Below, piece after piece: positions 1 to 46,785 of a stretch of DNA of 64,000 nucleotides. A program made the translations under genes and the position numbers. The stretch spans positions 1 through 64,000 of the forward strand of contig NZ_LXYR01000004.1 of assembly GCF_001650195.1 (NCBI RefSeq). The letters run 5' to 3'. The stretch's first letter is position 1. Each line of letters begins with the position of its first letter. The notes under the pieces are model-generated. The model was not told where the DNA came from. It saw nothing but the letters and a program-made list of their open reading frames with translations, and did not search any database. This stretch comes from Phormidesmis priestleyi BC1401 (GTDB lineage: Bacteria; Cyanobacteriota; Cyanobacteriia; Leptolyngbyales; Leptolyngbyaceae).

Positions 1-713
1 TGCGATTGAACGGCTTTGACTCGATTACGAGAGGAATTCGGGCAGTGGCGCATGACCTCCATCGTCTATTTTCCTTTCTTCAATAAACTAGCCCTGCGAT
101 CAGGTGGGACTTTGAACCAGATCAATGGCTTGACCTCTAAAACTCCGTTCCATCTCAAAGTCCCTCAGCATGGGGGATTTAGGGGGCGAGAGTCTCAGCA
201 ATGACTGATCGAAAGACTGTGTGTACACGGTAGACTTCGTGAAGAAGACATTAGAAACCAAGCTTCTGCTCGGACTTCGCCTCATTCAAATCGGAGACAC
301 TTAAGAAGGTCAATCGCTCATTTCTCAAGGAAAATCAGCGTCATCCATTAAAGCCCAAATCAGACTCGCACTATCCCGACTACCTATGAATCTACGACGG
401 AAAATATTGACCGTTTTGAGGCAGATGAAAGCCGATTAAAAAATCAACGATCGCATAAGCAAACTCTTGTATTTAAAAACGAGATCAAGGAAGCGATAAA
501 AAATACGGCTACCAATTTAAGCCGGGACAGTAGCTCCCTCAAAACTTAAGGCTTCGTTCAATCTGTCCCGCTTTATGTTGGTAGCCAAAATACTCATATT
601 TTTATTCCGCTTTCAAGTTTTTTGAAAAAAATCAACGATCTCAGACAAAAAACGCCTTGGTTTAATAAAAAAAGCTTTTATTTGCTAAAAATTTCATCTG
701 ATCGAACTTTAAA
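1..713. other. Left-edge region without a confident gene
   Basis: No reading frame here looks like a recognised protein. A lysine-rich open stretch at about 348-549 on the plus strand, ending SSSLKT-stop, has no start codon and no recognisable family. It may be the decayed tail of a gene. The last 100 bases are AT-rich and hold runs of A and T. The only clear structure is the inverted repeat at 507-586, listed separately. Confidence 0.5.
507..586. repeat. Imperfect inverted repeat, 24-nt arms
   Basis: Arms lie at 507-530 and 563-586. They begin and end GGCTACCAA...GGGACAG and CTGTCCCG...TTGGTAGCC, with a few mismatches in the middle and a 32-nt loop. The left arm overlaps the end of the start-less open stretch, so it could act as a terminator, but a T-run follows only loosely. 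A small dispersed element is equally possible. Confidence 0.6.
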
Positions 714-1028: not shown

Positions 1029-1074
1029 TGAGCTATTGTGATCAATAGTGACCTTTTATAAAATCCGCCCTCTT

Positions 1075-2268
1075 ATGACACTGGCGCATCCCCACAAAAA
1101 GGCAAAAGCCCTCAAATCGTCTAGCCGCCGCCCCGCCAAAGAACTGTGCAGCGAGTGTGGGCTGTGTGACACTTACTATATTCACTACGTCAAAGATGCG
1201 TGTGCGTTTCTCAATCAGCAGATTGCCGAGCTAGAAGAAACCGTTCACGGGCGCAGTCGTGATTTAGAAAACCAGGACGATTGGTATTTTGGCGTTCATC
1301 AAGACATGATGGCAGCGCGGAAAAAAGAACCGATTCCGGGGGCACAGTGGACGGGAATTGTGAGTTCGATCGCCATCGAAATGCTCAATCGCGGCATGGT
1401 CGAAGGAGTTGTGTGTGTGCAGAATAGCGACGACGATCGCTTTCAGCCTAAACCTGTGATTGCTCGCACACCTGAAGACATTCTTGCGGCACGAGTTAAT
1501 AAACCAACGCTCTCGCCAAATCTATCTGTTTTAGAAGAAATCGAGCAGTCAGGAATGAAGCGGCTGTTAGCGATCGGAGTGGGCTGTCAGATTCAAGCCC
1601 TTCGAGCCGTTGAAAAACAGTTAGGACTTGAGAAACTCTACGTCTTGGGCACTCCTTGCACCGATAATGTGACTCGCGCTGGATTGCAGAAATTTTTAGA
1701 CACCACGAGCCGATCGCCCGATACCGTCGTCTACTACGAGTTTATGCAAGACTTTCGAGTGCATTTTAAGCACGAAGATGGCTCAACTGAGTTAGTGCCC
1801 TTCTTTGGCTTAAAAACCAACGAGCTTAAAGACGTGTTTGCGCCCTCGTGTCTAAGCTGCTTTGATTATGTAAACTCCCTCTCCGATCTCGTCGTGGGAT
1901 ATATGGGAGCGCCGTTTGGCTGGCAGTGGATTGTCGTGAGAAACGATCGAGGTCAAGAAATGCTTGACTTGATGCAAGACCAAATCGAAACACAGCCCGT
2001 CATGTCACAGGGCGATCGTAAAAACGCCGTTCAGCAAAGTATTCCAGCTTACGATAAAGGCGTAACGCTGCCGATGTGGGCGGCAAAACTCATGGGCGTG
2101 GTGATCGAAAAGATTGGTCCGAAAGGATTAGAATATGCGCGCTTCTCGATTGATTCTCATTTCACCCGCAATTATCTATACGTCAAACGCAACTACCCAG
2201 AGAAGCTAGAGCAACACGTTCCAGACTACGCAAAGCGAATTGTCGGGCAATACAAACTACCCGACTGA
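1075..2268 (+). CDS. bciB: 3,8-divinyl (proto)chlorophyllide 8-vinyl reductase, BciB type
   Basis: This FrhB-family iron-sulfur flavoprotein reduces the C8 vinyl group of divinyl chlorophyllide, using reduced ferredoxin, late in chlorophyll a synthesis. The N-terminal KELCSECGLCDTYY motif supplies [4Fe-4S] cysteines. Further cysteines in GVGCQIQ, GTPCTDN and FAPSCLSCFDY are typical of the FrhB N- and C-terminal domains. Length (398 residues) and the SRRPAKELCSECGLCD opening match the cyanobacterial slr1923 group. The ATG at 1075 is chosen because family members begin there; an in-frame GTG at 1048 would add nine residues. FrhB paralogues also act as hydroxymethyl-chlorophyll a reductase, but the cyanobacterial group is known for 8-vinyl reduction. 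Confidence 0.88.
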   Translation: MTLAHPHKKAKALKSSSRRPAKELCSECGLCDTYYIHYVKDACAFLNQQIAELEETVHGRSRDLENQDDWYFGVHQDMMAARKKEPIPGAQWTGIVSSIAIEMLNRGMVEGVVCVQNSDDDRFQPKPVIARTPEDILAARVNKPTLSPNLSVLEEIEQSGMKRLLAIGVGCQIQALRAVEKQLGLEKLYVLGTPCTDNVTRAGLQKFLDTTSRSPDTVVYYEFMQDFRVHFKHEDGSTELVPFFGLKTNELKDVFAPSCLSCFDYVNSLSDLVVGYMGAPFGWQWIVVRNDRGQEMLDLMQDQIETQPVMSQGDRKNAVQQSIPAYDKGVTLPMWAAKLMGVVIEKIGPKGLEYARFSIDSHFTRNYLYVKRNYPEKLEQHVPDYAKRIVGQYKLPD

Positions 2269-42710: not shown

Positions 42711-42799
42711 CGGAGAGAGAGGGATTCGAACCCTCGGATAGACCTAAATCCATCAACAGATTAGCAATCTGCCGCTTTCGACCACTCAGCCATCTCTCC
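42711..42799 (-). tRNA. trnS-GCU: tRNA-Ser (GCU)
   Basis: On the minus strand the molecule starts GGAGAGATGGCTGAGTGG and ends with the T-arm GGGTTCGAATCCC and acceptor TCTCTCC plus G. The anticodon loop ATTGCTAA gives GCU, reading AGC/AGU serine codons. A long variable arm marks it as a class II tRNA. CCA is not encoded. Confidence 0.95.
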
Positions 42800-45385: not shown

Positions 45386-46084
45386 CTAACAACTCAATGA
45401 GTCCTCATCCAGGGCAGAGGGAATGCCCAACACAGGGCAGAGAAACGTCTTTCCTAGTTGCTGCACGAGTGGATGCTTGGCAGATTCACAGCCCAAAATC
45501 AGCAGAGACGCTGACTCAGCTTGAACGACACTGGTTAACTCTTCGTCAACAGAGCCAAACCGTAGGTGGGTTTTGAGAGAACCGCGCCACTCATCGGCTA
45601 AACAACGAGCCTGCCAGAGAATTCGATCGGCGTGTTCAAACACGTCTGCCATACCCATCTCAAGACTAGGACTGGCTACCTCAACGAGATCAGGCAATTC
45701 AGCCAGTGCGGTTCTTGGACGAGCGCAATCATGAAGAGCCACATCTAAGAGAGTGGGCTGATCGTGGGATCGTGCCCATCGCTGCGTCGGATCTGTTGTT
45801 GCAGCAACCCTCGATCGCGGATGGCTCGATCGATTATCAACGACATAGACAACCTGAACTGTGACTTGTTTTCTCGTCGCTAACCGAGTTTGGTGAGCAA
45901 TCCATAACGTAAGGTCGAGCGCGGCTTGACTGCGGGGAGAACCCGAATAGCCCACCACCAAATTGATGTCTTGCTCAGAGCTAGTCTGAGGCGATTGCGC
46001 TTGTGGTAAAAGCACCATTTGATTCACTAAGTCACTACGACCTAGCGTGCTTTGAAGACGCACAAGCATGGATAGAATATTCAC
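45386..46084 (-). CDS. Universal stress protein family (UspA-like)
   Basis: This 232-residue protein has a UspA-like fold: NLVVGYSGSPRSQAALDLTLWIAH and LTSVVQAESASLLILGCESAKHPLVQQLGKTFLCPVLGIP. It may bind ATP (G-2x-G-9x-G type pattern near the end is not perfect). The start is a GTG at 46084, reading GTG-AAT-ATT-CTA. The ribosome site is the GAGAGG eight bases before it, inside a hairpin at 46092-46120. An upstream ydaO/yuaA riboswitch (46210-46345) indicates control by c-di-AMP, linking it to osmotic or potassium stress. Confidence 0.85.
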   Translation of the reverse strand: MNILSMLVRLQSTLGRSDLVNQMVLLPQAQSPQTSSEQDINLVVGYSGSPRSQAALDLTLWIAHQTRLATRKQVTVQVVYVVDNRSSHPRSRVAATTDPTQRWARSHDQPTLLDVALHDCARPRTALAELPDLVEVASPSLEMGMADVFEHADRILWQARCLADEWRGSLKTHLRFGSVDEELTSVVQAESASLLILGCESAKHPLVQQLGKTFLCPVLGIPSALDEDSLSC

Positions 46085-46085
46085 G

Positions 46086-46120
46086 ATAAAAACCTCTCAA
46101 GATCAGGGTTTGCGAGAGGT
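46086..46120 (-). promoter_or_regulatory. Hairpin overlapping the Usp ribosome site
   Basis: On the minus strand ACCTCTC (46120-46114), a 15-base loop and GAGAGGT (46098-46092) are followed by TTTTATC and the GTG start. The right arm is also the only good ribosome site. It can act as terminator, ribosome-site blocker or both, as the output part of the riboswitch. Confidence 0.7.
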
Positions 46121-46209
46121 GGGTCAGGGGTTTTGCCTCCAGCGTTTCTTGAATAAGCGACGCTAAGAGGTTAACCAGGAGACCCCAATGACCGTTGCTC
46201 ATAGTAAGC

Positions 46210-46345
46210 CTAAGTCTTGGGCGCTCCTCCCATTGCCGACGGAGTTAGCTGACGGGCTAAGACTGGAAGGTGTCTCTCTCAAACTCTCTGAGATTCGCCC
46301 CAAAATAAGGTTGGTTCCTCCGCTTTGAATAGAGTGATCCACCAG
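46210..46345 (-). promoter_or_regulatory. ydaO/yuaA-type c-di-AMP riboswitch
   Basis: On the minus strand the aptamer reads GGAGGAACC...GGGGCGAATC (46320-46292), then a variable hairpin, then CCCGTCAGCTAACTCCGTC (about 46256-46238) and GGCAATGGGAGGAG. These match the conserved cores of the ydaO/yuaA class, whose ligand is cyclic di-AMP. The outer ends are approximate. About 125 bases of leader separate it from the Usp start. Confidence 0.87.
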
Positions 46346-46785
46346 TTTATACTGGTCAATCCTGCATCCAGATTAGGCTACCCACTCAAAATTACACTCA
46401 GAACGTTTTAAGCTGGTCAGCCACAATAGATTGCCTCGAAGCTGATTAGTGATCAATCTACGATAGCTAGCTCGTAAATCTCTGATACTTTGAAGACAAA
46501 ATCACGGTTGATTTCAGTGGGTCATCAATTGTTGACTAACTTAACAGCCCTTTGAAATTATAACAGTGCGGATTGATCCTCTGGACGTTCCCTTAGAAAT
46601 GTATATAGAATCACAGCCATCATTTTTAATAATGCTTTGAGCCAGAACCTGAGAAGAGCTTCGCAGTTGGCAGCTTTTCAAAGCGAGGGTCTTTGGCTTT
46701 GACGCGTTTTTTTATAGAATTATGCAGAGTCTTTTGACCATACAAGTTTGAGAAACTCTGCCTACTTTTTAGAAATAGTTGCCTG
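46346..46785. other. Gap upstream of the riboswitch
   Basis: No gene is seen. The riboswitch promoter must lie near 46350-46450; I cannot name its boxes. Confidence 0.4.

Follow-up and report, generated by a model that had tools for sequence, protein, structure and literature searches.

The question raised by this locus is whether the leader of a universal stress protein (Usp) gene holds a c-di-AMP riboswitch and, if it does, whether its output stops transcription, blocks translation or does both. The window, the whole 64,000 nt stretch of Phormidesmis priestleyi BC1401 DNA that was analysed, had been predicted to contain a ydaO/yuaA-type aptamer with both conserved cores upstream of a Usp-family gene, and a covariance-model search, one of the checks proposed with that original prediction, bears this out. 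The c-di-AMP (ydaO/yuaA) model RF00379 matches the minus strand over its full length at 61.3 bits (E 8.9e-12; gathering score 38 bits), and the same match is recovered when the organism's own genome is scanned. By its covariance match and its cores, the ydaO-class riboswitch in the Usp leader is real; the features of the class, namely the two cores, P1 and a loop-tail pseudoknot, are all present (Table 1). Binding of c-di-AMP by this RNA would be expected from the precedent of the class. The ligand is plausibly present, since the genome encodes domains of both a diadenylate cyclase and a 7TMR-HD phosphodiesterase. The element, first placed at 46086–46345, is found there, but its 5′ boundary lies further upstream, beyond the Rfam alignment, with the P1 strand GCCUAAU at 46378–46372 and GUGGGU at 46385–46380. 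Within P1, GCC (46378–46376) pairs with GGC (46237–46235); the Rfam alignment assigns a nonconserved stretch to the position of the P1 5′ strand.

Table 1. Features of the Usp gene and its leader, in window positions
Feature	Position	Strand	Basis
Candidate -10 box TATAAT	46557..46562	-	[CT]TATANT in 29/47 related leaders, 108–181 nt upstream of GUGGG
Candidate docking strand GUGGGU, immediately 5′ of P1	46380..46385	-	Core invariant among related leaders; missing in the 32 other cyanobacterial aptamers
P1 5′ strand GCCUAAU, conserved	46372..46378	-	Alignment of 37 leaders; sequence
c-di-AMP aptamer per Rfam	46222..46354	-	RF00379, 61.3 bits
Conserved core 1, GCGGAGGAACCA	46312..46323	-	Sequence; conserved in alignment
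Pseudoknot loop CCUUCC	46265..46270	-	Pairs with GGRAGG in 47/47 leaders
Conserved core 2, GCCCGUCAGCUAACUCCGUCGGC, contains P1 3′ strand	46235..46257	-	Sequence; conserved in alignment
Pseudoknot tail GGGAGG; alternative partner, anti-SD arm CCUCUC	46226..46231	-	Leader comparison, permutation test
Post-aptamer hairpin (AGGAG..CCAAGAC / GUC..UUGG..CUCCU)	46177..46228	-	RNAalifold
ACCCAC, GUGGGU partner at sequestor foot	46119..46124	-	Leader comparison
Anti-SD arm CCUCUC of sequestor	46114..46119	-	Leader comparison
SD sequence GAGAGG, sequestor 3′ arm, 8 nt before start	46093..46098	-	Sequence, leader comparison
T-run TTTTT after hairpin, not conserved	46088..46092	-	Sequence, leader comparison
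Usp-family gene, 232 aa, GTG start	45386..46084	-	PF00582; start conserved in orthologs

The downstream gene is assigned to the Usp family by Pfam PF00582 (36.3 bits against a cut-off of 24 bits, E 9.7e-9); NCBIfam and PDB sequence searches with the protein gave nothing useful. Its predicted GTG start (46084), 137 bases downstream of the RF00379 match, is supported, since the N-terminus MNILSMLxRLQ is kept in orthologs. The candidate -10 box would place the transcription start near 46550. Between this candidate promoter and the aptamer, a TTTTGTYTT..AAGTAKCAG-like stretch (window 46505–46480, minus strand) recurs in a number of relatives. One position of the post-aptamer hairpin varies between G-C, U-A, C-G and U-G in the RNAalifold analysis, and the hairpin is deleted in leader L063. 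An upstream ORF from ATG 46202, overlapping the Usp start, was set aside; it is open here and, by eye, only in the sister genome, and the other aligned leaders have no matching ATG.

The hairpin that precedes the Usp start reads ACCUCUC-N15-GAGAGGU, followed by TTTTTATC and GTG, with the ribosome site GAGAGG (SD) in one arm exactly as had been described. It was placed by script in 110 leaders from the same family, other cyanobacterial families and Nostocales, leaders that do not fit its pattern being uncounted. The arm and SD are CCUCUC:GAGAGG in 57 of these and CUUCUC:GAGAAG in 45. The second pair thus changes on both sides between lineages, and it is broken in only 2 of the 110. Native arm:SD pairing exceeded all 3000 permutations, a count that is not a probability because the related sequences are not independent. 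Among 47 aligned leaders the spacer from SD to start is 6–10 nt and the start codon is GTG (37) or ATG (10). Of the 49 long ORFs that the window contains, the Usp gene alone has an exact 6 bp SD sequestor, and 37 of the 42 genomes in the same order carry the hairpin pattern; together these place the hairpin beyond chance. The 110 leaders share the layout expected of a translational platform, a conserved hairpin that closely precedes the start codon and holds the SD in one arm, with pair 2 covarying. On this comparative evidence the hairpin is most likely a translational SD sequestor, which blocks translation rather than stopping transcription.

The best model for the locus is a translational OFF switch of Usp under c-di-AMP, at a probability of roughly 0.7. 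Its parts, i.e. the aptamer, the pseudoknot, the SD sequestor and the Usp target, are supported at the level of sequence. Without c-di-AMP, the aptamer tail GGGAGG would pair with the anti-SD arm CCUCUC and leave the SD open. Binding would lock P1 and the CCUUCC:GGRAGG pseudoknot, the released anti-SD arm would pair with GAGAGG, and with the SD masked Usp translation would fall. Pairing of GUGGGU, adjacent to P1, with ACCCAC, at the sequestor's foot, would dock the ligand-bound aptamer onto this hairpin. The OFF direction is the one expected from class precedent; c-di-AMP riboswitches are described as OFF switches, with one translational case (PMC9960051). In a Dehalobacter copy, the strand of P1 and the pseudoknot has been proposed to pair with the output stem without ligand (PMC9337991), and the tail GGGAGG could pair with CCUCUC here in the same way. 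Native tail:arm pairs exceeded 3000 permutations over the 110 leaders (these sequences being related, this is not a probability), though the pairing is interrupted (A.C) in 15 of the 47 leaders of the locus's own group; for these reasons the tail:arm exchange is kept as a putative step. Nested folding, in which no pseudoknot is possible, does not show switching, because the SD is predicted to be masked both with and without a free pseudoknot strand (mean SD access 0.08 versus 0.10). With almost no difference between the two states, a thermodynamic demonstration of switching was given up.

The reverse direction, in which c-di-AMP opens the sequestor, for example via GUGGGU:ACCCAC, and raises Usp translation, is unlikely. 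Folded without ligand, the SD is indeed predicted to be largely masked, and its modelled access goes up a little when GUGGGU is paired (mean 0.03 to 0.08). However, the folding model has neither a pseudoknot nor coaxial stacking, the overlap of GUGGGU with the six conserved sequestor pairs is a single base, and OFF is the direction described for the class in both of the reports cited above (PMC9960051, PMC9337991).

More improbable still is a dual output, in which the same hairpin masks the SD and also terminates transcription, as originally proposed. The TTTTT directly after the hairpin is real in this genome and is shared with a few relatives, e.g. the sister genome, L074 and L110, but it is not conserved. 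Across the 110 leaders, the T-run directly after the SD arm has a length of 0 (16 leaders), 1 (34), 2 (47), 3 (7), 4 (2) or 5 (4); that is, 97 leaders have 0–2 T, 50 have none or one, and only 6 have at least four. The stem is weak, at 6–7 bp with a 15 nt loop, and a consensus terminator scan gave no hit at the hairpin. The combination of a stable hairpin and a conserved U-run that would mark a transcriptional platform was not found. Since the hairpin covaries but the T-run does not persist, the translational half of the proposal stands as a predicted sequestor, while an intrinsic terminator role is unsupported by the leader comparison and was rejected. The least probable reading, an aptamer relic whose hairpin is only a constitutive or protein-controlled damper of translation, could appeal to one relative (G149, locus L095) that keeps the hairpin without a Rfam-threshold aptamer, but almost every relative, like the present leader, retains both cores, P1 and the pseudoknot intact.

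The translational OFF switch would be reinforced by the GUGGGU:ACCCAC helix. ACCCAC is complementary to GUGGGU and lies flush with the 5′ arm of the sequestor. Positions 1–5 of the helix are paired in all 47 leaders except L065 and L098. Position 6 is U-A in 39, C-G in L068, A-U in L098, U-G in three and unpaired in three, with double changes in L068 and L098. Beyond the locus's own group covariation is weak (permutations 100/5000 overall and 448/5000 in the CUUCUC group), and the CUUCUC group, mostly Nostocales, has a looser partner of GUGGGU; for both reasons the helix is only probable. Its probable role is to dock the ligand-bound aptamer on the sequestor; docking of the bound aptamer to the expression platform is a trait of the switches among which ydaO has been classed (PMC10907184). 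More tentatively, the leader may represent a distinct cyanobacterial platform in which GUGGGU docks across the whole aptamer onto ACCCAC, a single stacked OFF structure is built from ligand-stabilized P1, the docking helix and the sequestor, and the pseudoknot has been re-sequenced to suit. A helix UGGGU:RCCCA directly after P1, by analogy with AGUC:GACU of the transporter group, was discarded; by inspection several leaders, L075, L080, L081 and L098 among them, lack it.

The pseudoknot of the Usp leaders, CCUUCC:GGRAGG, contrasts with the CUCUC:GAGAG-like pseudoknot of 32 other cyanobacterial aptamer loci and is, by this comparison, specific to the subtype. By inspection its counterpart is the loop-tail pseudoknot in the ydaO RNA of solved structure (sequence printed in PMC5393176). 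The other c-di-AMP riboswitches of cyanobacteria, such as the one preceding slr0753 (PMC10117731), share the aptamer and a hairpin directly after P1, but the 32 copies examined have neither the GUGGGU nor the ACCCAC strand, and they lack GUGGG and CCCACCUCUC. Many of the 32 precede transporter-like reading frames, judged by eye. CCUUCC-type aptamers are also seen at L150, L178, L186 and L190, followed by GACCCACCUC..AGAGG-like hairpins before the start codon of a frame that does not resemble Usp; this platform may have another target in addition to Usp. At L149, L151 and L187, CCUUCC-type aptamers lie upstream of a different frame beginning MPI.N..F.TD. Locus L118 (G066:C3) carries two divergent c-di-AMP aptamers, at 588–712 (minus strand) and 1057–1198 (plus strand), separated by approximately 350 bases; each of the two pseudoknot types is represented once.

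Compared with characterized systems, the leader shares its aptamer class, loop-tail pseudoknot included, with the Bacillus subtilis ydaO/kimA riboswitch (RF00379). The output of the latter is a terminator stem (as cited in PMC9960051), whereas here the hairpin contains the SD and the T-run is unconserved. For the Corynebacterium glutamicum nlpC riboswitch, translational control has been reported, and binding is proposed to free an anti-SD strand (PMC9960051), but this riboswitch belongs to another gene and phylum, and the present leader has a local conserved sequestor hairpin and GUGGGU/ACCCAC. In the literature searched, nlpC is the sole c-di-AMP riboswitch reported to act on translation, and the strongly conserved translational platform described here makes this mode directly testable. 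Cyanobacterial c-di-AMP riboswitches are already known (PMC10117731); the conserved Usp-specific translational platform is the new part. No paper naming a Usp gene as a cyanobacterial riboswitch target was found in the literature searched, and the novelty of this target is not certain because the search did not cover key gene lists. c-di-AMP in cyanobacteria has been tied to osmotic and night-time survival (PMC5986932, PMC5897029). The arrangement suggests that in many filamentous cyanobacteria, Nostoc and Anabaena species among them, c-di-AMP directly sets Usp production at the level of translation.

A search of 58 relatives with the Usp protein gave a match in 40. RF00379 was found at 27 of 29 scanned ortholog loci, close upstream of Usp at 26 and approximately 670 bases upstream at L059. 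A class-wide pattern search with region fetches gave ten loci from other families in which the hairpin lies downstream of an aptamer and a Usp frame comes next; at L112 this frame begins approximately 330 nt further on. Pattern matches without an aptamer (L064, L086) were judged to be chance. Among the matches listed in a scan of named genomes with the subtype pseudoknot loop, the same arrangement upstream of Usp occurs in Nostoc, Anabaena, Dolichospermum, Myxacorys and others. In the class sample, some c-di-AMP aptamer is present in 197 of 390 genomes. Upstream of Usp at L095 (G149:C53), where no Rfam-level aptamer is found, GUGGGUCGC and the GACCCACCUCUC/GAGAGG hairpin are kept, a possible natural decay of the switch. 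The second c-di-AMP aptamer of the P. priestleyi genome itself (L001, C39:39753–39887) lies on another contig, upstream of a frame that by eye resembles an ABC transporter permease; it has the other pseudoknot type and is without GUGGG and CCCACCUCUC. Elsewhere in the window, a tRNA gene with a long variable arm is located at 42799–42711 (minus strand; Rfam match).
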